A stretch of 64,000 bases of DNA. It comes from Sphingomonas kyeonggiensis. GTDB taxonomy: Bacteria > Pseudomonadota > Alphaproteobacteria > Sphingomonadales > Sphingomonadaceae. Below, piece by piece: positions 33,720 to 60,132 of the stretch (within the stretch, counting starts at the first letter, position 1; every line of letters starts with the position of its first letter). The notes under the pieces were generated by a model. That model saw only the letters and a list, made by a program, of their open reading frames with translations. It ran no database searches and was not told the DNA's origin. The position numbers and the translations under genes are program-made. The stretch is taken from NCBI RefSeq assembly GCF_014204495.1, contig NZ_JACHLN010000003.1, positions 372,001-436,000 on the forward strand. The letters run 5' to 3'.

Positions 33720-33733
33720 TGGTAGCGCTATCA
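33720..33733 (+). promoter_or_regulatory. LacI-type operator TGGTAGCGCTATCA over the xylX promoter
   Basis: A near-palindrome centred on AGCGCT. TTGACA at 33694-33699 with the operator starting 20 bp on places it over the -10/+1. Sister sites lie at 43176, 44580, 56560 and 56774. Confidence 0.75.
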
Positions 33734-43175: not shown

Positions 43176-43189
43176 TGTTAGCGGTAACG
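43176..43189 (-). promoter_or_regulatory. LacI-type operator TGTTAGCGGTAACG before the transporter
   Basis: A near-palindrome (AGCGGT core, one base off AGCGCT) 40 bp upstream of the transporter ATG. Same motif as at xylX. Confidence 0.6.
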
Positions 43190-44579: not shown

Positions 44580-44593
44580 TGATAGCGCTACCA
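44580..44593 (+). promoter_or_regulatory. LacI-type operator TGATAGCGCTACCA before GH3
   Basis: Near-perfect palindrome. TTGACC at 44553-44558 with GATAGT at 44575-44580 gives a 16-bp-spaced weak promoter that the operator overlaps. It also lies in the xylR divergent gap. Confidence 0.75.
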
Positions 44594-44645: not shown

Positions 44646-47048
44646 TTGCGCAATTTCCGCCGCATCGCCGCGCTTGCCATCGCCGCCACGGCATTGACGC
44701 CCGTACTGGCCGCCCCGGCCCAGGCCCAGGCGGCAAAGGCCGACACCAAGGCGGATCGGCCGCTCTACAAGGATGCCAGCCAGACGGTGGAAGCGCGCGT
44801 CGACGACCTGCTCGCGCGGATGACGCTGGAGGAGAAGGTCGCGCAGCTCGTTGCGATCTGGCTCAAGAAGGATGCGATCCAGACCCCCTCGGGCGAGTTC
44901 GATCCCGCCAAGGCAAGCGTGTCCTTCCCCAACGGCCTGGGCATGATCTCGCGCCCGTCCGACCGCAAGGGCGTGGCCGCGGGCACCACCAATGCCGGTG
45001 CCGACGCGACCGCCAACCGCAATGCGGTGGACACCGCGACGTACATCAACGCCGCGCAGAAATGGTCGATGGAGAAGACCCGGCTCGGCATCCCGATGAT
45101 CATGCACGAGGAAGCGCTGCACGGGCTGGTAGCGCCGGGCGCGACGAGCTTCCCGCAGTCGATCGGCCTCGCCTCGACCTGGAATCCGGGGCTGCTCGAG
45201 AAGGTGTTCAGCGTCGCCGCCGCAGAGGCGCGGGCGCGCGGCGCCAACCTGGTGCTGGCCCCGGTGGTCGATGTCGCGCGCGACCCGCGCTGGGGCCGCA
45301 TCGAGGAGACCTATGGCGAGGATCCGTATCTCGTCTCCGAGATGGGGCTGGCGGCGATCCGCGGCTTCCAGGGGACTACCCTGCCCCTCGCCAAGGACAA
45401 GGTGTTCGTCACGCTCAAGCACATGACCGGGCACGGCCAGCCCGAGAGCGGCACCAATATCGGCCCGGCCTCGCTCGGCGAGCGGACGCTGCGCGAGGAC
45501 TTCTTCCCGCCCTTCGAAAAGGCCGTGACCCAGCTGCCGGTGCGCGCGGTGATGGCGAGCTATAACGAGATCGACGGCATCCCGAGCCATGCCAACAAAT
45601 GGCTGCTCAACGACGTGCTGCGCGGCGAATGGGGCTTCAAGGGCGCGGTGGTCAGCGACTATTTCGCGATCCGCGAGCTGGTGACCCGCCACCATATGTA
45701 CAAGGACGTCAAGGACGCCGGCGCGCGCGCGCTCGATGCGGGCGTCGATGTCGAGACGCCGGACGGCGAAGGCTTCAACTTCCTGATCCAGCTGGTCCGC
45801 GAGGGCAAGGTCAGCACGGGCCAGATCGACAATGCGGTGCGCCGCGTGCTCGAGATGAAGTTCGAAGGCGGGCTGTTCGAGAACCCCTATGCCGATGTGA
45901 AGCTGGCGGAGAAGCGGACCAACACGCCCGAGGCGATCGCGCTGGCCCGCCAGGCTGCGCGTGAGAGCGTTGTGCTGCTCAAGAATTCCAACGGGCTGCT
46001 GCCGCTCGACGCCACCGGCATCAAGCGGATGGCGGTGATCGGCACGCACGCCAGGGACACGCCGATCGGCGGCTATTCGGACATCCCCAACCATGTCGTC
46101 TCGCTGCTCGAGGCGATGCAGGCCGAGGGCAAGGGCAAGTTCGCGGTCGACTATTCGGAAGGCGTGCGGCTGACCGAAGGGCGCGTCTGGGCGCAGGACA
46201 AGGTGACGCTGACCGACGCGGCGACCAACGACAAGCTGCGCGCCGATGCGGTGGCGGCGGCGAAGAACGCCGATGTCGTGGTGATGGTGCTGGGCGGCAA
46301 CGAGGCGCTGAGCCGCGAGGCCTGGGCCGACGACCATCTCGGCGACAGCGACAATCTGGAGCTGCCGGGGCCGCAGAACGAACTGGCCAAGGAGATCATC
46401 GCGCTGGGCAAGCCGGTGGTGGTGATCCTGCTCAACGGCCGCCCCTATGCGGTCAACTATCTCGCCGAAAAGGCGCCGGCGCTGATCGAGGGCTGGTATC
46501 TGGGCGAGCAGACCGGAAATGCGCTTGCCGACGTGCTGTTCGGCCGGTTCAACCCGGGCGGCAAGCTGCCCGTGTCGATCGCGCGCAATGTCGGCCAGCT
46601 GCCGAACTACTACAACAAGAAGCCGAGCGCGCGCCGCGGCTATCTGTTCGGCGACACCAGCCCGCTCTATCCGTTCGGCTACGGCCTTTCCTATTCGACC
46701 TTCGAAATGGGCAAGCCGGTGCTGGGATCGGGCACGATCGGGATCGCCGACAATGTGAAGGTGAGCGTCGACGTGACCAACACCGGCAAGCGCGCCGGCG
46801 ACGAAGTGGTCCAGCTCTACGTACGCGATGACGAGGCGAGCGTGACGCGGCCGACGATCGAGCTCAAGCGCTTCCAGCGGGTGACGCTGCAGCCGGGCGA
46901 GAAGAAGACGGTGAGCTTCGAGCTGACCCCGGCGGACCTGTCGCTGTGGAACGTGCAGATGAAGCGGGTTGTCGAGCCGGGGACGTTCACGATCTCGGCC
47001 GGGCCGAATTCGGTGGACCTGAAGAGCACCACGCTGACGGTTCGGTGA
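44646..47048 (+). CDS. GH3 beta-glycosidase, exported (probable beta-xylosidase/glucosidase)
   Basis: 800 aa from a TTG start (GGGAGAGGTTCG before it). It has a signal peptide ending near AAPAQAQAA. The GH3 N-domain has 'GIPMIMHEEALHGL' and 'RDPRWGRIEETYGEDPYL', with catalytic nucleophile Asp338 in 'AVVSDYFAI'. The C-domain has the acid/base-type segment 'GGNEALSREAWADDHLGDSDNLELPGPQ', and a fibronectin-III-like end (GDEVVQLYVRDDEASVTRPTIELKRF). It removes terminal sugar residues from oligosaccharides; xylosidase activity is inferred from context. Confidence 0.88.
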   Translation: MRNFRRIAALAIAATALTPVLAAPAQAQAAKADTKADRPLYKDASQTVEARVDDLLARMTLEEKVAQLVAIWLKKDAIQTPSGEFDPAKASVSFPNGLGMISRPSDRKGVAAGTTNAGADATANRNAVDTATYINAAQKWSMEKTRLGIPMIMHEEALHGLVAPGATSFPQSIGLASTWNPGLLEKVFSVAAAEARARGANLVLAPVVDVARDPRWGRIEETYGEDPYLVSEMGLAAIRGFQGTTLPLAKDKVFVTLKHMTGHGQPESGTNIGPASLGERTLREDFFPPFEKAVTQLPVRAVMASYNEIDGIPSHANKWLLNDVLRGEWGFKGAVVSDYFAIRELVTRHHMYKDVKDAGARALDAGVDVETPDGEGFNFLIQLVREGKVSTGQIDNAVRRVLEMKFEGGLFENPYADVKLAEKRTNTPEAIALARQAARESVVLLKNSNGLLPLDATGIKRMAVIGTHARDTPIGGYSDIPNHVVSLLEAMQAEGKGKFAVDYSEGVRLTEGRVWAQDKVTLTDAATNDKLRADAVAAAKNADVVVMVLGGNEALSREAWADDHLGDSDNLELPGPQNELAKEIIALGKPVVVILLNGRPYAVNYLAEKAPALIEGWYLGEQTGNALADVLFGRFNPGGKLPVSIARNVGQLPNYYNKKPSARRGYLFGDTSPLYPFGYGLSYSTFEMGKPVLGSGTIGIADNVKVSVDVTNTGKRAGDEVVQLYVRDDEASVTRPTIELKRFQRVTLQPGEKKTVSFELTPADLSLWNVQMKRVVEPGTFTISAGPNSVDLKSTTLTVR

Positions 47049-47213: not shown

Positions 47214-48998
47214 TCATTCAGCCAGCCACGCCCCCACCCACACCAGCGGGGCGTTCCAGTTGATCGCGACTTCGTTGAGCGCATAGGCGCGGACATCGTC
47301 GCCCCAGCAGGCTTGCGGCGCGCAGTGCCCCTTGAGCTGCAGCGCCACCGGATCGACCATCGCCACCGAATTGGGGCCGCCCGAGAGCACGCCGGGCGGC
47401 GGGCCGGGCAATGTCGGATCGAGCGACGGCGCCCAGAAGCGATGGTGCGGATGCTGCATCGAGGCGCTGCCATAGCCGCTGACATAGGAGACGCGGTTCG
47501 GGTTGCGGCCGAGGATATAGTCGATCGCGTCGATCACCCCTGCCCGGTATTTCGGATCCTTGGTAATGTCCGCGGCGACACCCAGCACCATCGCCCGGTT
47601 GAGCAGCGCGCCGTTCGAGCCCCAGGGATAGTCCTTGGCCAGATAGGGGATGCGGTAGCCATTGCCCGCCTCGTCGGCGAGGAAACGGTCCGCCGTGGTG
47701 GCGAGCGCGGCGCGCAGGCGCTTCACATCCGCTTGCGCCAGCTTCGACGGGCGCGTCGCCAGCGTGATCGTGCCGAGCGTTGCGACCTGGGGCCAGCCGG
47801 GTTCGCCCGGGGCCTCGCGGAAATGCGGCGAGTCGGCCAGCGCCTTCTCATACTCGGCCTTGCCGGTGGTGACGAACAGCTCGGCTGCCGCCCAGTAGAA
47901 TTCATCGGACAGGTCGGTGTCACCATAGCCGCCCGAGCCGGTGAAGCTGTTGGTGGCATAGACTTCCGGGTTGCGCCGGGCGGCGGCGAAGGCGCGCTCG
48001 GCGGTGGCGAGGCAGCGCGCGGCGAAGGCCGGGTCGAGCGTCTTCCAGATCCGCGCGCACTGGGCGGCAGTGGCGGCGAGGTTGAGCGTCGCGCCGGTGG
48101 TCGGCGGATAGAGCAGGCGCTCGCGATCGTCCTTGTGCGGCGGCGTGGGCAGTGCGGTCCACCAGCGATCGGCGACCTTCTGGTGGGCCATGCCGCCCGC
48201 GTCGATCTCGGCGAAGGGCGCCGGGGGCGCTTCCCACACCGGCTTGCCGGGCGATGGCTGCGGCTTGCCGACGGGAACGCGCAGCCGCGTGCCCTGCGGC
48301 ACCTGCATGCGCAACAGGAAGTCCATCTCGTAGCGCGCTTCGTCGAGCAAGCTTGGGGCGCCGTTGGGGCCGGTGGGGAGTGCCTTCGGATTGCGCTCAT
48401 ACGCGTTGAGCAGCGTCCACAACGCGATGCCGCCATTGACGACATATTTGCCGTGGTCGCCGGCATCGTACCAGCCGCCGGTCACGTCGAGGCTGTAGGG
48501 GCAGCCGGTCCATTCGGTGCCGCGCTCGTCCTTGCCGGCGAAGCAGGTGGCGGTCTCGTGCGGATGCCCGGCGGGGCGCGCCCATTTCGCGCCGACGATG
48601 CGCGCCTCGATGGGGATGCCGGCGCGCTGGTGGTAGAAGAAGGCGAGCGCATCGCGGGCGAGCGGGCGGTAGAGGTTCGGGCGGATCTCGAAGCTGCTGC
48701 TCGTGCCAACCACCGTACGGAGCAGATAGGTGCCAGGCGTGCGGAAGCCGGAGAAGTCGATGCGCTGGACCGTCAGGCCCGAGGCCGCGTCCTCGCCATA
48801 AGGCTCGGTCCTGCCGCGCAGAACGACCTGGCCCTTATTGTCCAGCAACTCCCATGCGCTCACCTCTGCCCCGGCACGCAGGATCGCGCGCTTGGTATCA
48901 CCGGGCTCGAAGCCCAGCTGGTTGACGTCGATCGCCAAGGGCGGAGGAACTGTCGCACCGAGCAGCAGCGGTGCCGCAAGGAGCAGCGCCCTGCTCAC
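47214..48998 (-). CDS. GH9 glycoside hydrolase with N-terminal Ig-like domain
   Basis: 594 aa from a GTG start at 48998 that overlaps the GH43 stop (GTGA). The signal-like start is SRALLLAAPLLLGATVPPP. The CelD-type Ig domain (about 22-110, 'VNQLGFEPGDTKRAILRAG') is followed by the GH9 catalytic domain: 'VTGGWYDAGDHGKYVVNGG' (catalytic Asp pair), 'DEFYWAAAELFVTTG', 'VSYVSGYGSASMQHPHHR' and 'ALNEVAINWNAPLVWVGAWL' (catalytic Glu). GH9 enzymes are mostly endoglucanases; here it may act on xyloglucan or a mixed glucan released with xylan. It ends the six-gene operon. Confidence 0.85.
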   Translation of the reverse strand: MSRALLLAAPLLLGATVPPPLAIDVNQLGFEPGDTKRAILRAGAEVSAWELLDNKGQVVLRGRTEPYGEDAASGLTVQRIDFSGFRTPGTYLLRTVVGTSSSFEIRPNLYRPLARDALAFFYHQRAGIPIEARIVGAKWARPAGHPHETATCFAGKDERGTEWTGCPYSLDVTGGWYDAGDHGKYVVNGGIALWTLLNAYERNPKALPTGPNGAPSLLDEARYEMDFLLRMQVPQGTRLRVPVGKPQPSPGKPVWEAPPAPFAEIDAGGMAHQKVADRWWTALPTPPHKDDRERLLYPPTTGATLNLAATAAQCARIWKTLDPAFAARCLATAERAFAAARRNPEVYATNSFTGSGGYGDTDLSDEFYWAAAELFVTTGKAEYEKALADSPHFREAPGEPGWPQVATLGTITLATRPSKLAQADVKRLRAALATTADRFLADEAGNGYRIPYLAKDYPWGSNGALLNRAMVLGVAADITKDPKYRAGVIDAIDYILGRNPNRVSYVSGYGSASMQHPHHRFWAPSLDPTLPGPPPGVLSGGPNSVAMVDPVALQLKGHCAPQACWGDDVRAYALNEVAINWNAPLVWVGAWLAE

Positions 48999-50659
48999 TC
49001 CCCTGCCCCGGCGAACAGCCCGAACACCGAGCCGACGAAACCGCCGGCGACCTTGGTCGTCAGGCTGTCGGTCTCGACCTGGCCGAGATGCTTCCAGGCG
49101 GGCTTCGCGCCGGGAGCGGCATAGCTGAAGGCATAGCTGCGGCCCTGGACGGCGATGCGCAGGCGCAGCGGGCCGGCGGGCGCGGGTACGGTGGCCAGGG
49201 TCTTGCCGAGCTTCGGGCTGTTCGGGCCCTCGCGCTGGTCGAGGGTGAGCACATCCTTGCCGCCGACGCGCTTCACCCCGACGAAGAACCAGTAATCGTC
49301 GTTCTGCAGCACGGCGAGGCCGGCGCGGTCGCCGTCCTTTTCGGGGGCGAACTTCACGGTGGTTTCGGCCACCGCATTGGTGTGCTGCTGGCGGCGGGCG
49401 AGGAACGACGGGTTGGCATTGTCGCCGAGGCCGGCGGCGCGCGCCTTGAGCATCAGGCCGGCGGCGCCGGTGCGGTACCAGTCCTCGCGCGGGTTGCGCA
49501 GCATCATCCAATAGGCGGGCAGCTTGCTGCGGAAATCGTCGCGGATCGTGAAGGCGCCCGAGGTGGGGAGCGGCGCCTTGCCGTGGGGGAGCGCCGGCCT
49601 TGCGTGCGTCCAGGGGATCGGCGTGGCGGCGGGCAGGATCACCGGCCAGCCGTCCTTCCATTCTACCGGCAGCAGGAAGGTCTCGCGGCCGGTGGTGTAG
49701 AAATCGCCCTCGTACGGGCGGACGGCGAGGAAGGTCGCCCACCATTTGCCGTCGGGCGTGGTGACCAGCTGGGCGTGGCCGGCCGAGGTGATCGGCATCG
49801 GCCGATCGCGGGACAGATCGCGCTGGGTGAGGATCGGGTTGCCGCTCCACGCCTCGTACGGGCCGGTGACCGATTTGGAGCGCAGGATCACCTGGCTATG
49901 GCCCTCGGCGGTGCCGCCCTCGGCACAGCTGAGATAATACCAGCCGTCCTTCTTGAAGATGTGCGGGCCCTCGATCCAGACGGGCTTTTTCGAGATGTCG
50001 ATGCCGCCGTCGACGAGGAGGGTGCGTGGGCCGAAGGTCTTGCTGGTCCTGCGGTCGAACTCCTGCACCCAGATCGCGCGGTGCCCCTGGTAGAGCGGCT
50101 GGCCGCGCGTCGGGCCGTTGTTGACCACCCAGGTGCGGCCGTCATCGTCGAAGAACATCGAGGGATCGATGCCGCCCTCGAGATCGGGCAGCCAGATCGG
50201 ATCGGACCACGGGCCCGCCGGGTTCCTTGCCGTCAGCAGGAAATTGCCGCCGCAATCGACGCAGGTGTTGAGCAGGTAGAAGGTCCCGTCCCTGGCCTGG
50301 ATCGAAGGCGCGAAGACGCCGCGCGACAGGCCGAGCTGCTTGAAATCGAGCATGCCCGGCCGATCGATCGCGTTGCCGATCTGGGTCCAGTGGACGAGGT
50401 CGCGGCTGTGGAAGACCGGGATGCCGGGGTACCAGCCGAAGGTGGAGGTGACGAGGTAGAAGTCGTCGCCGACCCGGGTGACGCTCGGGTCCGGATAGAA
50501 GCCCTTGAGGATTGGGTTGCGATACTCGTTCGGCCCGGCGGTGAGCGCGTCGGATGCGTCCCTGCCGCTATAGGTGAAGCTGGAGAAGGTCGCGACCGGC
50601 TGGGCGATGGCGGGCGCGGCGAGGAGCAGCGCGGCGGCGGTGGTCAGGAAGCGGCTCAT
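48995..50659 (-). CDS. GH43 glycoside hydrolase with C-terminal beta-sandwich
   Basis: 554 aa from the ATG at 50659 overlapping the halogenase stop (ATGA). There is a signal peptide (SRFLTTAAALLLAAPAIAQ). The five-bladed GH43 domain has the catalytic base Asp in 'KGFYPDPSVTRVGDDFYLV', the pKa-setting Asp in 'GGIDPSMFFDDDG' and the acid Glu in 'WIEGPHIFKKDGWYYL'. The C-terminal ~190 residues (FTIRDDFRSKLPAYWMMLRNPREDWYRT...) look like the GH43 C2 concanavalin-like domain of beta-xylosidases. Likely removes xylose or arabinose side units. Confidence 0.88.
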   Translation of the reverse strand: MSRFLTTAAALLLAAPAIAQPVATFSSFTYSGRDASDALTAGPNEYRNPILKGFYPDPSVTRVGDDFYLVTSTFGWYPGIPVFHSRDLVHWTQIGNAIDRPGMLDFKQLGLSRGVFAPSIQARDGTFYLLNTCVDCGGNFLLTARNPAGPWSDPIWLPDLEGGIDPSMFFDDDGRTWVVNNGPTRGQPLYQGHRAIWVQEFDRRTSKTFGPRTLLVDGGIDISKKPVWIEGPHIFKKDGWYYLSCAEGGTAEGHSQVILRSKSVTGPYEAWSGNPILTQRDLSRDRPMPITSAGHAQLVTTPDGKWWATFLAVRPYEGDFYTTGRETFLLPVEWKDGWPVILPAATPIPWTHARPALPHGKAPLPTSGAFTIRDDFRSKLPAYWMMLRNPREDWYRTGAAGLMLKARAAGLGDNANPSFLARRQQHTNAVAETTVKFAPEKDGDRAGLAVLQNDDYWFFVGVKRVGGKDVLTLDQREGPNSPKLGKTLATVPAPAGPLRLRIAVQGRSYAFSYAAPGAKPAWKHLGQVETDSLTTKVAGGFVGSVFGLFAGAGE

Positions 50660-52173
50660 GCTGCGCAATTGTCCCGGATGAAGTCGCGGTGCCTGGGCAT
50701 GTAGGCGGCGCTGTTCGCCACCGCCTCGCGGATATGGGCGAGCCGCGAACGGGTCTCTTCCAGGGGCATGACGTCGGCGACCGGATCATGGCCCGCCGGC
50801 TCCATCAGCTGGCCCAGCATCACCGCGAACCAGCTGGTGTCGTTGAACAGTTCCTCATTCTCGCGGAAGGCGCGGCCATGGCTGCGGAAGACGCGCATCT
50901 TCTCGGCCAGCCGCTCGGGAATCTCCATCGTGCGGCAGTAATTCCAGAAGGGGGAATCGGTGCGCTCGGTCGCGTGGTAATGGAGGACGAGGAAATCGCG
51001 GATCTCCTCGTAATCGGTCTGCATGATCCGGTTGTAGCGATCGATGTCCGCCTGGTTGAAGTCGCGGTCGGGGAACATCGTCAGGAAGCGCGACAGGCCC
51101 GACTGGATCAGCCAGATCGACGTGCTCTCCAGCGGCTCGAGGAAGCCGCCGGACAGACCCATGGCGACGCAGTTCTTGACCCACATGCGGTTGCGGTGGC
51201 CGGTCTTGAACGGGACGGTGCGCGGATCGGCGAGCGGGGCGCCGTCGAGATTGCCGAGCAGGATCGATGTCGCCTCGTCGTCGGACATATAGTCGGACGA
51301 GAAGACATGGCCGTTGCCGATCCGGTGCTGGAGCGGGATGCGCCATTGCCAGCCGGCGGTGTGGGCGGTGGAGCGGGTATAGGGCGTCCAGGCATCGACG
51401 CTCTCGCACGGCACGGCGATCGCGCGGTTGCAGGGCAGCCATTGCGACCAGTCGGTATAGCCGGCCTTGAGCGCCTGCTCGATGATCAGGCCGCGGAAAC
51501 CCGAGCAATCGATGAACAGATCGGCTTCCAGTTCGGTGCCGTCCTCCATCTTCACCGACTGGACGAAGCCGTCCTCGCCCCGGAGATTCACGTCGACGAT
51601 CTTGCCCTCGCGGCGGACCACGCCGAGATCCTCGGCATAGCGGCGGAGGAACTTGGCATAGAGGCCGGCGTCGAAATGATAGGCATAGGCGATGTCGGAG
51701 AGCGGCGAGTTGCCCGCATCGATGCCGCGCATGAACTTGTCGTCGCGCGCCGCCATCGCCTGGAGCGACCATTCGTCGACGTCGGGCGCCTCGCCGAGCT
51801 GGCGCATGCGGAGATAATAGGCGTGGAAGGACACGCCCTTCATGTCGAGCCCGTAGCGGCCGAAGGGATGGAAATAGCGGTGGCCGATCCGCCCCCAGTT
51901 CACGAACTGGATGCCGAGCTTGAAGCTGCCCTTGGTCTCGCGGATGAACTGGTCCTCGTCGAGGCCGAGCATGCGGTTGAAGGTGGCCATCTGGGGGATG
52001 GTCGCCTCGCCGACGCCGATGATGCCGATCTCGTCGCTCTCGACCAGCGTGATCTTCGCATAATCGGGGCCGAGGATGCGCGAGAGCGTGGCGGCGGTCA
52101 TCCAGCCGGCGGTGCCGCCGCCGACGATCAGGATGGAGCGGATGTTGCGATCCGTTGGGTCTTTGTCGGTCAT
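50656..52173 (-). CDS. Flavin-dependent tryptophan halogenase-like protein, paralogue 1
   Basis: 505 aa. The FAD motif GGGTAGW is at about 18-24. The halogenase Lys is present in 'KGSFKLGIQFVNWG' (Lys85), as is the WxWxIP-type block 'GWQWRIPL'; 'FLEPLESTSIWLIQSGL' also matches. The family adds chlorine or bromine to indole rings with FADH2; the natural substrate of the carbohydrate-linked branch is unknown. The gene overlaps paralogue 2 and the GH43 gene by ATGA. Confidence 0.88.
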   Translation of the reverse strand: MTDKDPTDRNIRSILIVGGGTAGWMTAATLSRILGPDYAKITLVESDEIGIIGVGEATIPQMATFNRMLGLDEDQFIRETKGSFKLGIQFVNWGRIGHRYFHPFGRYGLDMKGVSFHAYYLRMRQLGEAPDVDEWSLQAMAARDDKFMRGIDAGNSPLSDIAYAYHFDAGLYAKFLRRYAEDLGVVRREGKIVDVNLRGEDGFVQSVKMEDGTELEADLFIDCSGFRGLIIEQALKAGYTDWSQWLPCNRAIAVPCESVDAWTPYTRSTAHTAGWQWRIPLQHRIGNGHVFSSDYMSDDEATSILLGNLDGAPLADPRTVPFKTGHRNRMWVKNCVAMGLSGGFLEPLESTSIWLIQSGLSRFLTMFPDRDFNQADIDRYNRIMQTDYEEIRDFLVLHYHATERTDSPFWNYCRTMEIPERLAEKMRVFRSHGRAFRENEELFNDTSWFAVMLGQLMEPAGHDPVADVMPLEETRSRLAHIREAVANSAAYMPRHRDFIRDNCAA

Positions 52174-53687
52174 GCGTCGTTCCTTGCGGGCGCGTTGCGC
52201 GCGAGCCATTCCTCGTGGCGGGGCATCGCCCGGGCGGCGCGGGCGAACATCTCGTGGATGCGCGACAGGCTGGTGGCGAGCTTGTCCTCGTCGAGCCCGT
52301 CGACCAGCGGATCCCAGCCGGCGGGGATCACCCCCTGCCCCAGCAGCACCGCGATCCAGCTCGATTCGGCGAACAGCTCGTCCTCGTAGCGGAAGAAGCG
52401 GCCGCGACCCCGGAACAGGGCGAGCTTGCGCTCCAGGCTCTCGGGGATCGCCATCTCGCGGACACGGCGCCACAGGTCGCCGTCCCGGCGCTCATTGGCG
52501 TGGTAGTGGAGGATGATGAAGTCGCGAACCTGCTCCATCTGGGTGTCGGTCAGCCGGTTGAACTCGTCACGCTCCACGGGGGAGAAGCCCGTGTCGGGTA
52601 GCAGCGCCATCAGCTTGTGGATGCCCGCCTGGATCATGTGGATGCTGGTCGATTCCAGTGGCTCGAGGAAGCCGCTGGAGAGCCCGAGCGCGATGCAGTT
52701 CTTCTCCCAGGCGCGCTTGCGGCGCCCGGCCTCGAACTTGAGGATGAAGGGATCGCGCAAGGGCGCGCCGTCAAGGTTCGCCAGCAGCGTCTCGCGGGCT
52801 TCGTCGTCCGAGATATCGGCGCTGCAATAGACATGGCCGTTGCCGACGCGGTGCTGGAGCGGGATGCGCCATTGCCAGCCCGCCTTGTGGGCCGTGCTGC
52901 GAGTGAAGGGGGTGATCTCCGGGCCCGGGCTGGCGCTGGTCACCGCGACGGCGCGGTCGCATTGCAGCCAGTGCGACCAGCTTTCCCAGCCGGTGTGGAG
53001 CGCCTGCTCGATCAGCAGCGCGCGGAAGCCGGTGCAATCGACGAACAGCTCGCCTTCGATCCGGCGATCGCCTTCGAGCACCACCGCCTCGATGAAACCG
53101 TCCGTGGCGCGCAGCGGGACATGGGCGACCTTGCCCTCGATGCGGACGACGCCGCGTTCCTCGGCATAGGTGCGCAGGTACCTGGCATAGAGCGAGGCAT
53201 CGAACTGATAGGCATAGGCCATGCGCGAGAGGATCGAGCCCGGATCCTGGACCGGCGGCTGGTAGCGCCCGGCGGTCATCGCGAGCGCGCAGACATTATA
53301 GTCGTCGATCTCGCGAGCGCGCCCCTCTTCATGGAGCTTGCGCCAGATCTGGTGGAACTTCACGCCCTCGATATCGAAGCCGAACTCGCCGAACGGGTGG
53401 ACATAGCGATGGCCCTCGCGCGTCCAGTCCAGGAACTCGATGCCAAGCTTGATCGTGCCCTGGGTCTTCGCGAGGAAGTCATTCTCGTCGAGACCGAGCA
53501 GCGCGTTGAAGTTGCGGATCGGCGGGATCGTCGCCTCGCCGACGCCGACGGTGCTGATCTGCTCCGATTCCACCAAGGTGACGGAGACCCCGGTGGGAAC
53601 AAGGCGCGAGAGCGCAGCGGCGGCCATCCAGCCGGCGGTGCCGCCGCCGACGATGACGATTTGGCGGATCGGCGCGGGGGCGGTCAT
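52170..53687 (-). CDS. Flavin-dependent tryptophan halogenase-like protein, paralogue 2
   Basis: 505 aa. FAD motif GGGTAGW at about 14-20; catalytic Lys80 in 'TQGTIKLGIEFLDWT'; 'GWQWRIPL' present; 'FLEPLESTSIHMIQAG' present. All halogenase signatures are intact. Overlaps paralogue 3 and paralogue 1 by ATGA. Confidence 0.88.
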   Translation of the reverse strand: MTAPAPIRQIVIVGGGTAGWMAAAALSRLVPTGVSVTLVESEQISTVGVGEATIPPIRNFNALLGLDENDFLAKTQGTIKLGIEFLDWTREGHRYVHPFGEFGFDIEGVKFHQIWRKLHEEGRAREIDDYNVCALAMTAGRYQPPVQDPGSILSRMAYAYQFDASLYARYLRTYAEERGVVRIEGKVAHVPLRATDGFIEAVVLEGDRRIEGELFVDCTGFRALLIEQALHTGWESWSHWLQCDRAVAVTSASPGPEITPFTRSTAHKAGWQWRIPLQHRVGNGHVYCSADISDDEARETLLANLDGAPLRDPFILKFEAGRRKRAWEKNCIALGLSSGFLEPLESTSIHMIQAGIHKLMALLPDTGFSPVERDEFNRLTDTQMEQVRDFIILHYHANERRDGDLWRRVREMAIPESLERKLALFRGRGRFFRYEDELFAESSWIAVLLGQGVIPAGWDPLVDGLDEDKLATSLSRIHEMFARAARAMPRHEEWLARNAPARNDA

Positions 53688-55084
53688 GCGATCAGTCCTT
53701 CGGCGCGGAGGGTGGCGCCATGGTGCGGCATCGCGCGGACCGCGTCGAGGATCAGCGAACGGATGCGGCCGAAATGCTGCGCGAGCGCTTCCTCCGGAAT
53801 GGCATCGGCGAGTGCATCGTGGCGGCGCGGGCGGATGCCCTGGCCGTCGAGCACAGCGATCCAGTCCTCGGCTTCGAACAGCTCCCCGTCATAGAGCGGC
53901 ACGCGGCCCCGGCTCGCGTACAGGTCGAGCTTGTGCTGGAGCGTCTCCGGAACCGGCGCGGTGCGGGCGTGATCCCAGAGCGGTTCACCGGCGCGGCCAT
54001 TTGTCTTGTAGTGGAGGATGGCGAAATCACGGACGCGGTCGGCCTCTTCGGCGGTGAGGCGGTTATATTCGGCGGGCTCGGGGCCGCTCGGGGCGGCGGG
54101 AAGCAAGGCGAGCAGTCGGGCGAGCGCATTCTGGAGGAAGGCGAGGTTCCAGCCGTGGAGCGGCTCGACCAGCGCGGCGGCGGCACCCAGGGCGATGACC
54201 TTGCCGGTCCATGCCCGGGGGCGGTGGCCCTGGACGATCGGGATCGCGTTCGGCTGCTCGGGGAGATGCGCCGAACTGTAGAACAGCGCCCCGCTTTGCC
54301 CGCCGACCAGCGGCACGGTGCGCTGCCAGCCGGCCTCGAAGGCGCCGGCATGGCAATAGGGCGGCGGGATGCCCTCGGCCGGGTTCCAGTTCTCGACCAC
54401 GCGGTTGCAGGGTAGCCATTCGGCCCAGCTTTCCCAGCCGCTGTCGCCGGCGAGCAGCGCGGCCGGTCCGGAGCAATCGAGCCATAGGTCGGCGGTCAGG
54501 CGCGAGCCGTCCTGCAGCTCGACTTCATCGTCGGCAAAGGCGCGGAAGCTGCCGAGAGGCCGCAGGCCAGTGGCGGCGCGCAGCGTCTCGGCCAGACCGG
54601 CGCGGTCGAGGTGCAGGCCATAGCCATAGCTCGACAGGATCGAGCGCGGATCCTCGCTCGGCCGGACGAAGCGGCCCGAGGCGGCGGCGATGGCGGCAAG
54701 CGAGAAATCGGCGAGACGGACGGGCTGACCGATCGCGCGCAGGCGGGCGGCGAGCTGGTGGAAGGCCGTGGTGGCAAGCGGGGCGCCGATCGTGCCGAAG
54801 GGCAGGAACCAGTCCACCTCCCCTGCCCAGCCGGAGCACGCCGTACCGAGCGAGAAGCTGCCGTGCGCGGCGTGCAGGAGCTCGCGTTCGTCAACGCCGT
54901 GATCGGCCAACCAATATGGGAAGTCCGGCAGGCTTGCCTCCGCCGGGCCGAAGGGACCGAGGCTATGGTCCGGGCCTTCGGTGGCGATGATGAAGACCTC
55001 GGTGCGGGGCAGCGCGCGGGTGAGCGCCAGCGCCGCCATCCAGCCGGCGACGCCGGTGCCGACAATGCCGATGCGCGCGATCAT
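53684..55084 (-). CDS. Degenerate halogenase paralogue 3, key catalytic residues missing
   Basis: 466 aa, the shortest of the four. The FAD motif is reduced to 'GIVGTGVAGWM'. The Lys position is Ser78 ('HGSFSLGTA'). The WxWxIP block reads 'GWQRTVPL' and the ExS segment reads 'VEPLHGWNLAFL', so Lys, Trp-x-Trp and the LESTS glutamate are all lost. The fold pattern persists ('DFAILHYKTNGR', 'LDLYASRGRVPLYDGELFEAEDWIAVLDGQG'). It is unlikely to halogenate; a structural or substrate-binding partner of the neighbours is possible. No frameshift, so it is not a pseudogene by reading frame. Confidence 0.85.
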   Translation of the reverse strand: MIARIGIVGTGVAGWMAALALTRALPRTEVFIIATEGPDHSLGPFGPAEASLPDFPYWLADHGVDERELLHAAHGSFSLGTACSGWAGEVDWFLPFGTIGAPLATTAFHQLAARLRAIGQPVRLADFSLAAIAAASGRFVRPSEDPRSILSSYGYGLHLDRAGLAETLRAATGLRPLGSFRAFADDEVELQDGSRLTADLWLDCSGPAALLAGDSGWESWAEWLPCNRVVENWNPAEGIPPPYCHAGAFEAGWQRTVPLVGGQSGALFYSSAHLPEQPNAIPIVQGHRPRAWTGKVIALGAAAALVEPLHGWNLAFLQNALARLLALLPAAPSGPEPAEYNRLTAEEADRVRDFAILHYKTNGRAGEPLWDHARTAPVPETLQHKLDLYASRGRVPLYDGELFEAEDWIAVLDGQGIRPRRHDALADAIPEEALAQHFGRIRSLILDAVRAMPHHGATLRAEGLIA

Positions 55085-56532
55085 GCCGCCATTCCCAGCG
55101 CGGCTTCATGGCTTGGCATCGTGGCGGCCAGCGCGGCGATCTCGGCGCGCATCGCCGCCATGGCGCCGGTGACGCCCGCGCCTCCGGCACGCGGGTCCGG
55201 GTGGTTCGGCGTGACGTGCTGGCCGAGATAGACCGCGAGCCAGCTCGGCTCGAGGAAGGTGCCCTCGCGATACTGGACCACCACGCCACGCTCGCGGAAC
55301 AGCTCGAGCTTGTGGGCGAGCGAGTCCGGCACGGTCATCGCCCGGCAATGGCGCCAGAACTTGGAATCGTCGCGCTGCTGGCAGTGATAGTGGAGGATCA
55401 GGAAATCGCGGACGCGCTCATAGTCGAGCGCCATCAGCCGGTTGAATTCCTGGGCGTCGAGTGGATCCCATGCCTGGGTCGGAAACAGATCGAGCAGCCG
55501 GCCGATCGCGACCTGGATCAGGTGGATCGAGGTGGATTCGAGCGGCTCGAGAAAGCCCGAGGCGAGGCCGATCGCGATCGTGTTGCCCACCCATTGGCGC
55601 CTGCGCTTGCCGGTGACGAAGCGGAGGCGGTTGGGCTCGGCGAGCGGGGCGGCGGGGAGTTGGGCGAGCAGGGTTCCCAGCGCGGCATCGTCGCTGGTGA
55701 AGCCGCTCGAATAGACATGGCCGTTGCCGGTGCGGTGCTGGAGCGGAATGCGCCAGATCCAGCCGCTTTCCTGCGCGGTGGCGCGGGTGAGCGGCGGCAG
55801 CGGGCCGGTGTTGGGACAGGGCAGCGCGATGGCGCGGTCGCACGGCAGCCAGTGCGTCCACTCCTCATAGCCGGCCCTCAGCGCCTGCTCGATCAGCAGG
55901 CCACGGAAGCCCGAGCAATCGACGAACAGGTCCGCTTCCAGCGTCTCGCCGCTTTCGAGGGTGATCGCGCGGACATGGCCGCTCTCGCCGTCCAGCGCGA
56001 CATCGACCACCTTGCCTTCGCGCCGGACGACGCCGCGCGCTTCGGAATAGCCGCGGAGGAACCGGGCGTAGAGGCCCGCATCGAACTGATAGGCATAGTT
56101 GTAGGGATCGCCATCCGGGCGGCGGAAGCGGCCCCGGCGAGCGGCCTGGATCGGCAGCGAATATTCCTCGAACGCCCCTGCCCCTTCGCTCGCCAGCCAT
56201 TGGTGGTGGAAGGGCACGCCGTCTATCGGCGCGCCGAACTCGGCGAAGGGATGGATATAGCTGTCGCCCTTGCAGCCCCAGTCGACGAACTCGATGCCGA
56301 GCTTGTAGGTGCCCTTCGTCGCCGCGAGGAACTCCGCCTCGTCGATGCCGAGCGTGGCGTTGAAATGGCGGATATGCGGGATCGTCGCCTCACCGACGCC
56401 GACCGTGCCGATCTCGGCCGATTCGACCAGCGTGATCGCGAGCGGCGTGCCGGCGAATTTATGCGCGAGCGCGGCGGCGGCCATCCACCCCGCAGTGCCC
56501 CCGCCGACCACGAGTACGCGCCCAATCAGCAT
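55081..56532 (-). CDS. Flavin-dependent tryptophan halogenase-like protein, paralogue 4
   Basis: 483 aa from the ATG at 56532 (MLIGRVLVVGGGTAGW); the frame is open upstream but carries the operator. Catalytic Lys77 in 'TKGTYKLGIEFVDWG'; 'GWIWRIPL' present; 'FLEPLESTSIHLIQVA' present. First gene of the operon, 28 bp after a LacI-type half-site palindrome. Confidence 0.88.
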   Translation of the reverse strand: MLIGRVLVVGGGTAGWMAAAALAHKFAGTPLAITLVESAEIGTVGVGEATIPHIRHFNATLGIDEAEFLAATKGTYKLGIEFVDWGCKGDSYIHPFAEFGAPIDGVPFHHQWLASEGAGAFEEYSLPIQAARRGRFRRPDGDPYNYAYQFDAGLYARFLRGYSEARGVVRREGKVVDVALDGESGHVRAITLESGETLEADLFVDCSGFRGLLIEQALRAGYEEWTHWLPCDRAIALPCPNTGPLPPLTRATAQESGWIWRIPLQHRTGNGHVYSSGFTSDDAALGTLLAQLPAAPLAEPNRLRFVTGKRRRQWVGNTIAIGLASGFLEPLESTSIHLIQVAIGRLLDLFPTQAWDPLDAQEFNRLMALDYERVRDFLILHYHCQQRDDSKFWRHCRAMTVPDSLAHKLELFRERGVVVQYREGTFLEPSWLAVYLGQHVTPNHPDPRAGGAGVTGAMAAMRAEIAALAATMPSHEAALGMAA

Positions 56533-56559: not shown

Positions 56560-56573
56560 TGTTAGCGCTCCCG
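56560..56573 (-). promoter_or_regulatory. LacI-type operator TGTTAGCGCTCCCG before the halogenase operon
   Basis: One arm matches the motif well (TGTTAGCGCT); the other is degenerate. It is 28 bp upstream of the paralogue-4 start. Confidence 0.5.
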
Positions 56574-56773
56574 CCGCGAAATCGTCAATCGCCCCGACAG
56601 GCGATTCGAGGCCGATCCGGCCCCTTCGCAGTTGCGAAAATCGTGCCGCAACGCAGCGAAACCGTTGCGAAAACGCCACAAATCCAAGGTTTACATGAAA
56701 GCGTAACAAGACGGCTTGATCTTTCCATAACTCCTACATTAGTTTGGACACAAACAAGAAACGCGCTCGGAAA

Positions 56774-56787
56774 TGATAGCGCTAACA
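56774..56787 (+). promoter_or_regulatory. LacI-type operator TGATAGCGCTAACA before the TonB receptor
   Basis: The closest match to the palindromic consensus TGNTAGCGCTANCA, 19 bp before the receptor ATG. A purine-rich GGAGGGGAGA Shine-Dalgarno follows. Confidence 0.8.
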
Positions 56788-56805
56788 GGGAGGGGAGACA
56801 GCTCG

Positions 56806-59800
56806 ATGCGCAAGCACGATTCTATTCATCACATCGACAGGACTGCCAGGTTCCGCACGGGCGCGTTGCGCGCCGGCGTGTCGGCCGCGGCGCTTGCCTG
56901 CCTTTCGGTAGCGGCACCTGCCTGGGCACAGGACAGCCAGGCCACGGGCACGCCCGCGCCGACGACCAGCGAGACCACCCAGGAAGACACGATCGTCGTC
57001 CAGGGCTATCGCCAGTCGCTGCAGAGCGCGCAGAGCCTCAAGAAGAATTCGGACGTGATCGTCGACTCGGTGACGGCCGAGGACATCGGCGCCCTGCCCG
57101 ACCGCTCGGTCACCGAGACGCTGCAGCGCATCCCCGGCGTCTCGATCAACCGCTTCGCCGCCGGCGTCGATCCCGACCACTTCTCGGTCGAAGGCTCGGG
57201 CGTGGTCGTGCGCGGCCTCACCTATGTCCGCTCGGAGTTCAACGGCCGCGAGGCGTTCACTGCCAATAACGGCCGCTCGCTGAGCTTCGCCGACGTGCCT
57301 TCGGAAATGATGGGCGGCGTCGACGTGTTCAAGTCGCCCTCGGCCGACCGCATCGAAGGCGGCATCGCCGGCGTGGTCAACCTGCGCACGCGCAAGCCCT
57401 TCGACAACAAGAAGGGCCTGGTCGTCGCCGGTTCGCTCGAGGGCAATTACGGCGACTTCGAGAAGAAGTGGACGCCGACCGGCTCGATCATGGTCAGCAA
57501 CCGCTGGGACACGGGGATCGGCGAGATCGGCGTGCTCGCCAACTTCTCCTATTCGCAGCTCAAGAGCCAGTCGGACCGCTTCCAGGTCTCGAGCTTCCGT
57601 ATCCGCAATCTCTATTCGGACGGCGACGTCGTCGACAATGGCGGCACGACGATCAGCAAGCAGGTCTATTTCCCGCGCGGCGCGGTGATGGGCCGCCAGG
57701 AGTTCAATCGCGAGCGCTACGGCTATGCCGGGGCGATCCAGTATCGCAGCAATGACGGCTCGGTGGAGGCCGTCGCCCAGTTCCTGCGCTCCGACGCGCG
57801 CCAGGCCTGGAGCGAGCGCACGATCGAGATCGCGACCGACAACGTCTCGGCCAATGGCGACTCGCGCCGGGTGCCGGGCACCACGCTCGACTTCGACAGC
57901 GACGGCATGTTCGTCAGCGGCACGATCACCGGCCCGACCGGCTGGCGCGGCGACCAGAACACCGGCGCGGCCCGCGTGCCGATGCTCGGCCTGCAGTCGA
58001 ACAACATCCGCCGCGACCATCAGGAGAAGCTCGTCACCGACGATTACGGCTTCAACCTGAAGTGGAACGCGACCGACCGGCTGGGCGTGATCTTCGACTA
58101 TCAGCATGTGAAGTCGACCACCAACGTGCTCGACAACACGCTGTGGAACTCGACCTACCAGAACGCGTCGATCAAGCTGAACGGCTCGGACTTCCCGACG
58201 GTGGCGTTCGTCGCGCCGCAGGTCTGCAACGGCCCCGCCGCGAATTCGCAGAACCCGCCGGGCACCGGCTTCGACTGCAACAGCGCCCAGGCGCTGGGCG
58301 GCTCGGCGAACCCGACCTATTTCGGCGCGGGCCACACCAGCTTCGTCGATCCGTACAACAGTTTCCCGCGCGCGGCGATGGACCATATCGAGCAGAGCAG
58401 CGGCAATTCCGACGCCTTCCGCCTCGACCTCGACTATGCTTTGCCCGAGAACGGCTTCCTCAAGTCGATCCAGGGCGGCATCCGCTATGCCGATCGCGAC
58501 CAGGTCTCGCGCTATTCGCGCTACAACTGGGGCGTGCTCTCGGAGCAGTGGGGCAATAACGGCCCGGTCTGGCTGAGCATGCCGGTGAACGGCAACAACG
58601 CCAACCACACCGACGGCACCGCGAACACGTCCAACTCCGCCTATTATTTCAACAACTTCTTCCGCGGCCAGGTGACCAATCCGCTGGGCGGCGACGGGCG
58701 GCTCTACTATTCGGGCAACACCGCGTCCGACTATGCCGCGATGATCGACTATGCCAACGCGATCTCGCGCGAATGGCAGGCGACCGGTACCTGCGCCGAT
58801 GGCCGCGTGGTCAATGGCGGCTGGAACGCGCTGGCCAATCGCTGCGGCGTCATCCAGGGCACGCCGTTCCTGCCGGACGAGATCAACCCGATCCGCGAGC
58901 GCAACTACGCCGCGTACCTGATGGCGAAGATCGACACCCAGCTGGGCGGGCTGCACCTGACCGGCAATGTCGGCGTGCGCTATACCAAGACCAAGCGCGA
59001 CACCGACGGCTATGTCTCGTTCACCAACACGACGGCCTTCCCGACCGACGCGACCTGTGCCGCGCCGGTGGTGCCGCCGGCGACCCCGTCGCCCTTCTGC
59101 TCGTACAGCATCGCGGACCGCAACGCGGCACGCGCCTTCGTCAACGGCGCGCTGACCCCGTCGCACGTCTCGCTCGACTATACCTACTGGCTGCCGAGCG
59201 TGAACCTGAAGCTCGAGGCGGGCGGCGGCCTCCAGTTCCGCGCCGCCTATTTCAAGGGCGTCTCGCCGCCCCAGACCGGCCTGATCCGCAACTATCTACA
59301 GGCAAACCTGTCGGTGGTGCAGAATGTGGACGCCAACGGCAATCTCGTCCCCGGCAGCTTCCGCTTCCAGGGCGTGACCACCGCGGGCAACCCCTATCTG
59401 AAGCCGGTGGAAGCCGATAACTTCGACCTGACCGCCGAGTGGTATTTCTCGCGGGTCGGCTCGCTGACCGTCTCGGCCTTCTACAAGGTGCTGTCGGGTG
59501 TGGTGACCAACGACACCCGCCGCGTCGACCTGACCAACAACGGCCAGACCTATCCGGTGGTCATCACCACCCCGATCAACGCCACCGAGAAGGGCAAGAT
59601 CAAGGGCGTCGAAGTCAGCTACCAGCAGACCTTCGACTTCCTGCCGGGGCCGCTCAAGGGCCTGGGCCTGCAGGCGAACTACACCTATGTCGACAGCTCG
59701 GGCGTGCCCCAGTCGACCCTGTCCGAGACCGATCCGGACGTGGCCGCCGGCCGCGTGACCACGGTCAACACCTCGCTGCTGCCGCTGCAGGGCCTGTCGA

Positions 59801-60132
59801 AGCACCAGGTGAACATCACCCCGTTCTTCGACTATGGCCCGGTCTCGCTGCGCGCCAGCTACTCGTGGCGTTCGGACTTCCTGCTCACCGTGCGTGACGT
59901 GATCACGCCGAACGACCCGATCATCAACAAGGCGACCGGCCAGCTCGACGCATCGATCTTCTTCGCGGTGACCCCGCAGATCAAGATCGGCGTGCAGGGC
60001 TCGAACCTGACCAACGAGGTTACCCGCACCAATGCGGTGATCTCGAAGATCGGGGGCGGCATCATCGAAGTGCCGCGCGGTTGGTACATGAACGACCGCC
60101 GCTTCGCCGCGATCGCACGCTTCAACTTCTGA
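56806..60132 (+). CDS. TonB-dependent outer-membrane receptor (Xanth-Caul type)
   Basis: 1108 aa from the ATG at 56806 (strong RBS GGAGGGGAGA). The longer open frame begins inside the operator. There is a signal peptide to about AWAQ. The plug region is 'EDTIVVQGYRQSLQSAQSLKKNSDVIVDSVTAEDIGALPDRSVTETLQRIPGVSINR', then 'SRIEGGIAGVVNLRTRKPFD'-like. The 22-stranded barrel ends in '...RFAAIARFNF' with a C-terminal Phe. These receptors take up oligosaccharides, here probably xylo-oligosaccharides or glucuronoxylan fragments. Divergent from the halogenase operon; terminator after the stop. Confidence 0.92.
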   Translation: MRKHDSIHHIDRTARFRTGALRAGVSAAALACLSVAAPAWAQDSQATGTPAPTTSETTQEDTIVVQGYRQSLQSAQSLKKNSDVIVDSVTAEDIGALPDRSVTETLQRIPGVSINRFAAGVDPDHFSVEGSGVVVRGLTYVRSEFNGREAFTANNGRSLSFADVPSEMMGGVDVFKSPSADRIEGGIAGVVNLRTRKPFDNKKGLVVAGSLEGNYGDFEKKWTPTGSIMVSNRWDTGIGEIGVLANFSYSQLKSQSDRFQVSSFRIRNLYSDGDVVDNGGTTISKQVYFPRGAVMGRQEFNRERYGYAGAIQYRSNDGSVEAVAQFLRSDARQAWSERTIEIATDNVSANGDSRRVPGTTLDFDSDGMFVSGTITGPTGWRGDQNTGAARVPMLGLQSNNIRRDHQEKLVTDDYGFNLKWNATDRLGVIFDYQHVKSTTNVLDNTLWNSTYQNASIKLNGSDFPTVAFVAPQVCNGPAANSQNPPGTGFDCNSAQALGGSANPTYFGAGHTSFVDPYNSFPRAAMDHIEQSSGNSDAFRLDLDYALPENGFLKSIQGGIRYADRDQVSRYSRYNWGVLSEQWGNNGPVWLSMPVNGNNANHTDGTANTSNSAYYFNNFFRGQVTNPLGGDGRLYYSGNTASDYAAMIDYANAISREWQATGTCADGRVVNGGWNALANRCGVIQGTPFLPDEINPIRERNYAAYLMAKIDTQLGGLHLTGNVGVRYTKTKRDTDGYVSFTNTTAFPTDATCAAPVVPPATPSPFCSYSIADRNAARAFVNGALTPSHVSLDYTYWLPSVNLKLEAGGGLQFRAAYFKGVSPPQTGLIRNYLQANLSVVQNVDANGNLVPGSFRFQGVTTAGNPYLKPVEADNFDLTAEWYFSRVGSLTVSAFYKVLSGVVTNDTRRVDLTNNGQTYPVVITTPINATEKGKIKGVEVSYQQTFDFLPGPLKGLGLQANYTYVDSSGVPQSTLSETDPDVAAGRVTTVNTSLLPLQGLSKHQVNITPFFDYGPVSLRASYSWRSDFLLTVRDVITPNDPIINKATGQLDASIFFAVTPQIKIGVQGSNLTNEVTRTNAVISKIGGGIIEVPRGWYMNDRRFAAIARFNF

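Follow-up and report, generated by a model that had tools for sequence, protein, structure and literature searches.

A 64,000-nucleotide stretch of Sphingomonas kyeonggiensis DNA (contig NZ_JACHLN010000003.1, positions 372,001 to 436,000; hereafter the window, 64 kb within a 4.96 Mb assembly) carries four consecutive genes of the PF04820 family of flavin-dependent halogenases (FDHs), numbered FDH1 to FDH4 or slots 1 to 4, the first of which is divergent from the gene of a TonB-dependent receptor of the TIGR01782 type. Slots 1, 3 and 4 are predicted to be complete FDHs of the BrvH type, whereas slot 2 appears to be a conserved pseudo-halogenase under purifying selection. Our tentative reading is that the three complete enzymes work in the cytoplasm, where their client is a polypeptide produced together with the receptor, in the simplest case the receptor itself, and that FDH2 is a non-catalytic partner of FDH1.

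Thirty open reading frames (ORFs) of the window were scanned by profile. The Pfam search, together with the sequence, gave the minus-strand order FDH1-FDH2-FDH3-FDH4-GH43-GH9 (GH, glycoside hydrolase family), and all five junctions of this six-gene operon are 4-base ATGA or GTGA overlaps. Past the receptor lie the genes of a DUF6445 protein, a Cupin_8 protein and a GH67 enzyme:

55081..56502, minus strand: FDH1 (slot 1), predicted complete BrvH-type FDH; PF04820, 614 bits; the start may lie upstream, at 56532 in an earlier sequence-only reading
53684..55084, minus strand: FDH2 (slot 2), putative pseudo-halogenase; PF04820, 292 bits
52170..53687, minus strand: FDH3 (slot 3), predicted catalytically complete; PF04820, 646 bits; closest solved structure BrvH (PDB 6frl)
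50656..52173, minus strand: FDH4 (slot 4), predicted catalytically complete; PF04820, 660 bits
48995..50659, minus strand: GH43 with a C-terminal ConA-like domain (GH43_C2); PF04616, 328 bits, and PF17851, 128 bits; export-type N-terminus by eye
47214..48998, minus strand: GH9 with CelD_N; PF00759, 334 bits; GTGA overlap with GH43
56773..60132, plus strand: TonB-dependent receptor, TIGR01782 type; TIGR01782, 701 bits; PF00593 and PF07715
60261..60971, minus strand: DUF6445, predicted Fe(II)/2-oxoglutarate dioxygenase; PF20043, 242 bits
61029..62036, plus strand: Cupin_8 (JmjC-type hydroxylase family); PF13621, 234 bits
62084..64000, minus strand, beyond the window end (gene call to 64198): GH67 alpha-glucuronidase; PF07488, 504 bits, and PF07477, 297 bits

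The sequence-only reading had described an ATGA-coupled operon of four halogenase-like genes with GH43 and GH9 enzymes, adjoining a TonB receptor and two oxygenase-like genes, and the profile scores, the five overlaps and the Cupin_8 and DUF6445 matches bear out that description. Its count of four halogenases holds for family membership, but the catalytic residues are present in only three. Its interval, 48995-56532, covers the FDHs and GH43 but misses the GH9, receptor, DUF6445, Cupin_8 and GH67 genes of the same unit.

A search of a genome collection with one genome per species (84,980 species), using the two closest FDH2 proteins as queries, yielded 24 loci from Sphingomonas, Sphingomonadales, Caulobacter, Alkalicaulis and two gammaproteobacterial metagenome-assembled genomes, in which no slot 2 was recognised (L171 and L172). 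Slots 1 to 4 stand together beside the receptor in 21 of the 22 quartet-type loci (L149-L161, L163-L170); in L162, where a contig edge cuts the locus, only slots 2 to 4 are present, and in L161 slot 3 is relocated behind GH9. The 4-base overlaps (ATGA, GTGA or TTGA) are widely shared by the related loci, being found at 11/14 FDH1>FDH2, 13/13 FDH2>FDH3, 18/22 FDH3>FDH4, 14/15 FDH4>GH43 and 9/12 GH43>GH9 junctions. A plasmid of Niveispirillum cyanobacteriorum likewise carries four annotated tryptophan halogenases in a row, in the order of the window, which pair one to one with the window slots at 65.6, 43.7, 63.9 and 74.3% identity (receptor, 63.6%) and are followed by two GH43 genes and one GH9 gene. 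Between this plasmid quartet and the GH43-GH9 genes sits a prevent-host-death/VapC-type toxin-antitoxin pair (L173:18644-19308).

A 154-protein tree groups slot 2 into one clade (22 rows, Shimodaira-Hasegawa (SH) support 99) and does the same for slot 1 (19/19 rows, SH 96). A second sample comprised 103 PF04820-family proteins from 40 genomes of the order, obtained from 119 match rows after dropping the 16 weakest (<75 bits), which were distant matches and fragments, one of them the second half of a slot-2 gene. The gene immediately before slot 2 is of the FDH1 type in 10/10 cases among these genomes, eight of these predecessors falling within the slot-1 clade itself and two into an adjoining lineage (SH 89), and in 21/21 of the related loci with that side visible. 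Altogether, gene order and phylogeny indicate that the four-gene quartet is ancient.

Alignment of the 103 proteins, divided into class A (>=500 bits), class B (350-500 bits) and low-scoring members (<350 bits), revealed that the GxGxxG motif, the catalytic Lys, both Trp of the WxWxIP motif and the catalytic Glu with its Ser neighbour are kept in 68/68 class A proteins, and the Pro of WxWxIP in 67/68. FDH1, FDH3 and FDH4 of the window all belong to class A. The catalytic Lys was assigned as BrvH K83 by aligning the PDB sequence with FDH3, and we take the catalytic Glu to be the counterpart of PrnA E346. In the quartet-type loci, Lys, Trp and Glu are kept in 65/65 proteins of slots 1, 3 and 4. 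As a separate observation, Gly replaces the WxWxIP Pro in 12/25 class B proteins.

Slots 1, 3 and 4 might instead be flavin oxidases, hydroxylases or halide/oxygen sensors adjusting uptake, and not halogenases in the cell, which we consider unlikely. A weak kinship to QhpG and LodB-type flavoproteins, far under the cut-offs, and the slow indole turnover of BrvH (PMC5945002; the papers cited here are represented by excerpts of their text) would suit such roles. Against them stands the invariance of Lys and Glu in all class A proteins and throughout slots 1, 3 and 4; moreover, an active-site Lys-to-Ala substitution abolished halogenation by SrpI (PMC10858898), which together argues that the halogenation residues are kept for a reason.

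Window FDH2 differs at exactly these positions: Lys is replaced by Ser, Glu by His, and WxWxIP reads WQRTVP, while GxGxxG is kept. The second Trp and the Glu are gone from slot 2 in 22/22 quartet-type loci and the Lys in 14/22. The eight proteins that retain Lys come from Caulobacter and Alkalicaulis, and because they lack Glu and Trp, this pattern suggests that Glu and Trp were lost before Lys. Of the ten slot-2 type proteins found in the 40 genomes, nine have none of the three residues (Lys, Glu and second Trp), and the remaining one (G019) has diverged too far for alignment in this region; several of these proteins also lack GxGxxG. The ten low-scoring proteins, FDH2 included, form one clade in the 103-protein alignment (SH 99). 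The ratio of non-synonymous to synonymous substitution rates (dN/dS) of slot 2 is 0.12-0.30 in six pairs and that of slots 1, 3 and 4 somewhat lower, 0.08-0.23, a range that excludes the aberrant slot-3 values of L151 (0.51-0.56), a locus absent from the slot-2 comparison. A decaying pseudogene is ruled out by these ratios, and no internal stop occurs in any of the 103 proteins. It is improbable that slot 2, instead of being a pseudoenzyme, has a different flavin chemistry of its own on the client of the other slots: the window protein does keep GxGxxG, and Lys survives in the eight proteins above, though without Glu and Trp, but the several slot-2 proteins devoid of GxGxxG argue against a common flavin chemistry.

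The partner that accompanies the FDH family is the receptor. For the 40 genomes we assembled at least 130 TIGR01782 receptors, scoring up to 17 candidates per genome, dropping one fragment and joining three split matches; seven receptors, two of them beside FDHs, were added for the window genome, which is thus better sampled than the others. Of the 103 family genes, 64, 85 and 91 have such a receptor at a distance of up to 2, 5 and 10 kb, compared to 1.8, 3.0 and 5.2 expected from a density calculation, not a shuffle. Across the phylum, the family was found in 5/80 genomes at E 1e-40, two of which are the window genome and a congener; in the three genomes outside the order, each family gene (7/7) has a TIGR01782 receptor no more than 2.2 kb away. 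When receptors with an FDH within 8 kb (40 rows) were labelled on a tree of 100 of the 130, the label required 9 changes, compared to 31.6 when shuffled. In addition, FDH distances follow receptor distances with r 0.73 over 34 loci, a value reached in 0/2000 within-genome permutations. In two loci that have no TIGR01782 receptor nearby (L134:3606-9023 and L138), the FDHs adjoin a TonB receptor of another kind (assigned by Pfam for L134; L138 belongs to the same sequence cluster) and a 686-residue protein without a family, so the count of 91/103 understates the receptor link.

The sugar served by these loci varies. We compared 56 receptor loci with an FDH and 69 without, a few of which overlap, for nine GH families, with Pfam run on 40 chosen neighbour proteins out of 1407 predicted genes. 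LacI-family regulators occur in 35/56 FDH loci versus 7/69 loci without FDH, and any of the nine GH families in 42/56 versus 14/69. The 56 FDH loci contain GH3 (18), GH13 (13), GH97 (13), GH20 (4), GH43 (4), GH67 (4), GH29 (3), GH9 (2) and GH42 (1). Taken singly, GH43, GH9, GH20, GH29 and GH42 show no significant enrichment in this comparison, GH43 being present in 4/56 FDH loci versus 6/69 without. The FDH family thus stands beside TIGR01782 receptors in starch, beta-glucoside, chitin-type, fucose and xylan loci; on a Croceicoccus plasmid, a receptor, an FDH and an alpha-L-fucosidase follow in a row. A second recurring multi-FDH set was observed in the GH20 loci L022, L044, L055 and L062, where two class B FDHs in a row occur with SapC beside the receptor.

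This variety bears on the substrate. The halogenases had been proposed to act on an aromatic attached to xylan, and a substrate attached to, or released from, xylan now looks very unlikely. The quartet itself does have a link to xylan, since the fetched flanks of 20/22 quartet-type loci contain GH43, GH67 or GH9 and the Niveispirillum plasmid has its own GH43 and GH9 genes, so that a xylan-specific role of the extra copies is possible. In L032, an FDH locus of another kind, a carboxylesterase lies next to GH3, which would also suit such a substrate. In the wider family, however, the GH families vary while the receptor is constant, and a single aromatic on xylan therefore cannot be the family's substrate; GH67 is found in only the four loci counted above, and a xylan-only role for the family is ruled out by the GH variety and the lack of GH43 enrichment. 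The xylan link of the system accordingly stands for the quartet and fails for the family. Moreover, the scan of 30 window ORFs showed no member of a feruloyl esterase family. By eye, FDH1, FDH3 and FDH4 start almost at GxGxxG and have no signal peptide, whereas the N-termini of GH43, GH9 and the receptor are of the export type, which places the complete FDHs probably in another compartment than the polysaccharide hydrolases.

The same N-termini underlie our proposal of cytoplasmic action, and the constancy of the receptor amid changing GH families counts for a receptor-linked client. In the mechanism we favour, the repressor would release when the sugar is present, and receptor and enzymes would be produced together. 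Slots 1, 3 and 4 would then use FADH2, O2 and halide to halogenate, or else oxidise, aromatic side chains (Trp in the simplest case) of a polypeptide produced along with the receptor, which is most likely the receptor itself while still unfolded and not yet exported. Slot 2 would bind slot 1 and position the client or gate access, with no catalysis of its own, and the Cupin_8 and DUF6445 oxygenases may act on the same client. Polypeptide clients are plausible by analogy: BrvH and Xcc4156 accept indoles and not free Trp, and a peptide client has been proposed for them (PMC5945002, PMC7336383); ChlH chlorinates Trp within a 1054-residue protein (PMC12518702); and QhpG, which has an FDH-like fold, dihydroxylates Trp of a protein (PMC7876137). 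In the quartet receptor (window 56866-60132) and its 21 relatives, which are 52-89% identical to it, 14/16 Trp are the same in at least 21/22 sequences, the highest fraction of any residue type; the structure model of the receptor (predicted local distance difference test (pLDDT) score 52) is too poor for placing them. A hidden precursor of a ribosomally synthesised and post-translationally modified peptide (RiPP) in the gap between receptor and FDH1 was rejected as a candidate, as inspection by eye of the short ORFs in 21 such regions (window and 20 relatives) picked out no conserved one other than an ORF antisense to the FDH1 leader.

Several points weigh against a receptor client. Genes that simply move as a unit would be expected to co-diverge as well. 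For 12/103 family genes, no TIGR01782 receptor lies within 10 kb, and the genome G035 has the family and no TIGR01782 receptor at the threshold used. The near-invariant Trp of the receptor may simply serve sugar binding. A Trp column in the YNWR motif, present in 27/40 receptors with FDHs versus 6/60 without, was rejected as a receptor signature, since independent pairs give a median p of 0.25; similarly, the correlation between FDH number and receptor Trp density (rho 0.44 raw) falls to r 0.15 (p 0.14) in independent contrasts and was discarded as support. To our knowledge, no halogenated outer-membrane protein is known, and the slot 1-slot 2 heteromer is itself putative. The fullest form of the proposal, in which a halogenase/pseudo-halogenase heteromer, two further FDHs and JmjC-type oxygenases halogenate Trp of a sugar-importing TonB receptor before export, and in which this would be the native function of BrvH-type halogenases across alphaproteobacterial sugar receptors, is a speculation to which we give little credence; it would amount to a maturation machinery and to a novel type of outer-membrane protein modification.

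A different product is conceivable, and we regard it as somewhat unlikely: the FDHs might halogenate a free small molecule, such as an indole or a phenolic that the cell makes or encounters while growing on plant polymers, and the product would serve as a signal or as an antimicrobial in defence of the food. BrvH slowly brominates free indole at C3 (PMC5945002), sugar-linked control would suit a product made while feeding on a particle, several products could come from three complete enzymes, and raised tryptophan halogenase transcripts of Colwellia and phages have been tied to competition (PMC11337851). Nevertheless, among the scanned or annotated genes of the window and the Niveispirillum locus, none could be recognised as serving biosynthesis, export or resistance, the other quartet loci having been read with window genes as queries only, and the linkage of the family is to the receptor (91/103), with locus-specific co-divergence.

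The two oxygenases were surveyed in the same 40 genomes. Cupin_8 genes lie within 10 kb of a receptor in 20/21 cases, DUF6445 genes in 6/10, with 9/10 near an FDH, and SapC genes near a receptor in 16/37. The nearest PDB sequences to Cupin_8 are the protein hydroxylases FIH and JMJD5, a further precedent for a polypeptide client. In DUF6445, the putative HxD...H...R residues H120, D122, H208 and R224, whose roles are inferred, are invariant in 7/7 aligned members; the fold matches of its model (pLDDT 57) are led by Fe(II)/2-oxoglutarate dioxygenases, though weakly, with none at E <=0.001. Another locus of the window genome (L014:5843-15984) has the order receptor-SapC-Cupin_8-FDH, followed by an 828-residue protein that matches neither Pfam (E 1e-10) nor NCBIfam models and then by a di-haem peroxidase of the MauG type. 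MauG proper modifies protein Trp (PMC7876137), an intriguing but unproven parallel.

Downstream of the operon lie genes of sugar metabolism and its control, and a search for the LacI-type operator motif TGTTAGCGCTAACA with at most 2 mismatches returned 4 sites in the window compared to 0.01 expected. These features, with motifs given without strand, are:

44646..47048, plus strand: GH3; PF00933, 247 bits
43399..44736, minus strand: LacI-family regulator, start uncertain; PF00356 and PF13377
41733..43136, minus strand: sugar transporter of the major facilitator superfamily; PF00083, 356 bits
39873..41651, minus strand: IlvD/Edd-type dehydratase, presumably of a sugar acid; PF00920, 322 bits; NF009560 dihydroxy-acid dehydratase, 989 bits
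35733..36620, plus strand: SMP-30/gluconolactonase family (lactonase); PF08450, 278 bits
56774..56787: LacI-type operator motif, 1 mismatch, at the receptor start
56560..56573: weaker second motif, 3 mismatches, on the FDH1 side
44580..44593: operator motif, 2 mismatches, between LacI and GH3
43176..43189: operator motif, 2 mismatches, upstream of the sugar transporter
33720..33733: operator motif, fourth site, 39 bases before a 374-residue plus-strand ORF at 33759

The 374-residue ORF has no Pfam match at E 1e-10. As the first ATG of the receptor sits on the operator motif, its true start is probably downstream, at 56806 or 56866. In 13 Sphingomonadales relatives and in Alkalicaulis, the gap between receptor and FDH1 also has the motif with 1 mismatch, whereas six Caulobacter relatives have no version closer than 3 mismatches. 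Control like that of xylose genes, as had been suggested, fits both the excess of sites and the near matches in relatives. With a TonB receptor, GHs, an inner-membrane transporter and a sugar regulator among its genes, and a GH10 gene that begins just outside the window, the locus reads as one of the glucuronoxylan/xylose utilisation type, in which a LacI-family regulator and common operator motifs would link the genes. Elsewhere in the window, 27107-28447 encodes an ATP synthase-like ATPase with a C-terminal domain of the EscN type from type III secretion systems, probably for flagellar export. The assembly gave no 16S rRNA match despite its 100% completeness rating.

Comparison with known systems placed BrvH of Brevundimonas BAL3 (PDB 6frl), an indole-brominating enzyme, as the closest solved structure to both FDH3 (525 bits) and FDH2 (243 bits). 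FDH1, FDH3 and FDH4 share with it the motifs of complete FDHs, and a second FDH gene adjoins brvH (PMC5945002); however, the word 'TonB' does not occur in the text of that paper, and its excerpts mention no pseudo-halogenase. Xcc4156 from the Xanthomonas campestris FDHs (PDB 6y1w) matches FDH3 at 488 bits. It refuses free Trp and has been given a putative peptide client, and 'TonB' is likewise absent from the text of the paper (PMC7336383); residues that bind the backbone of free Trp are reported to be lacking in both enzymes (PMC5945002, PMC7336383). The RiPP halogenases MibH, SrpI and ChlH belong to the same superfamily as the window FDHs and use peptidyl Trp (PMC12518702, PMC10858898), but they sit in peptide biosynthesis clusters, whereas in the receptor/FDH1 gaps of the window and its relatives no small precursor ORF looks conserved by eye. 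QhpG is similar in its FDH-like fold and in modifying Trp of a partner protein (PMC7876137), but FDH3 scores only 40 bits on the QhpG NCBIfam model, compared to a cut-off of 240. The carbohydrate-utilisation (CUT) loci of Xanthomonas and Caulobacter resemble the window in having a TIGR01782 receptor, a LacI-type regulator, exported GHs and an inner-membrane sugar transporter, but the 2007 paper on such loci never uses the word 'halogenase'.

In the open-access literature, with subscription papers mostly outside and texts seen as excerpts, we found no account of halogenase genes beside sugar receptors or of a pseudo-halogenase, and among the matches listed for the latter term none mentions FDHs. 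The suspicion that this is an undescribed system stands to that extent. The nearest printed idea comes from a deep-ocean metatranscriptome, in which a tryptophan halogenase was speculated to modulate virus-host receptor interactions (PMC11337851). Among the matches listed, the other two texts that contain both 'tryptophan halogenase' and 'TonB-dependent' name PrnA in the context of pyrrolnitrin. Specialists may know part of the adjacency of halogenase and receptor already. Expression work in Caulobacter reportedly annotated xylose-induced 'tryptophan halogenases'. The new element would be the conserved halogenase/pseudo-halogenase pair within an ancient, receptor-bound quartet.

BrvH and the Xanthomonas halogenases are active enzymes whose native substrate is unknown (PMC5945002, PMC7336383). 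The present analysis narrows that question, as what the loci share is a TonB receptor from a single family and not a polysaccharide. The quartet, with its clean non-catalytic member, offers a compact genetic test system in isolates of Sphingomonas and Caulobacter. Should the client prove to be a protein, outer-membrane protein biology would gain a new step in halogenation, which would also supply protein-halogenating biocatalysts; otherwise, the quartet would still define a conserved pseudo-halogenase.

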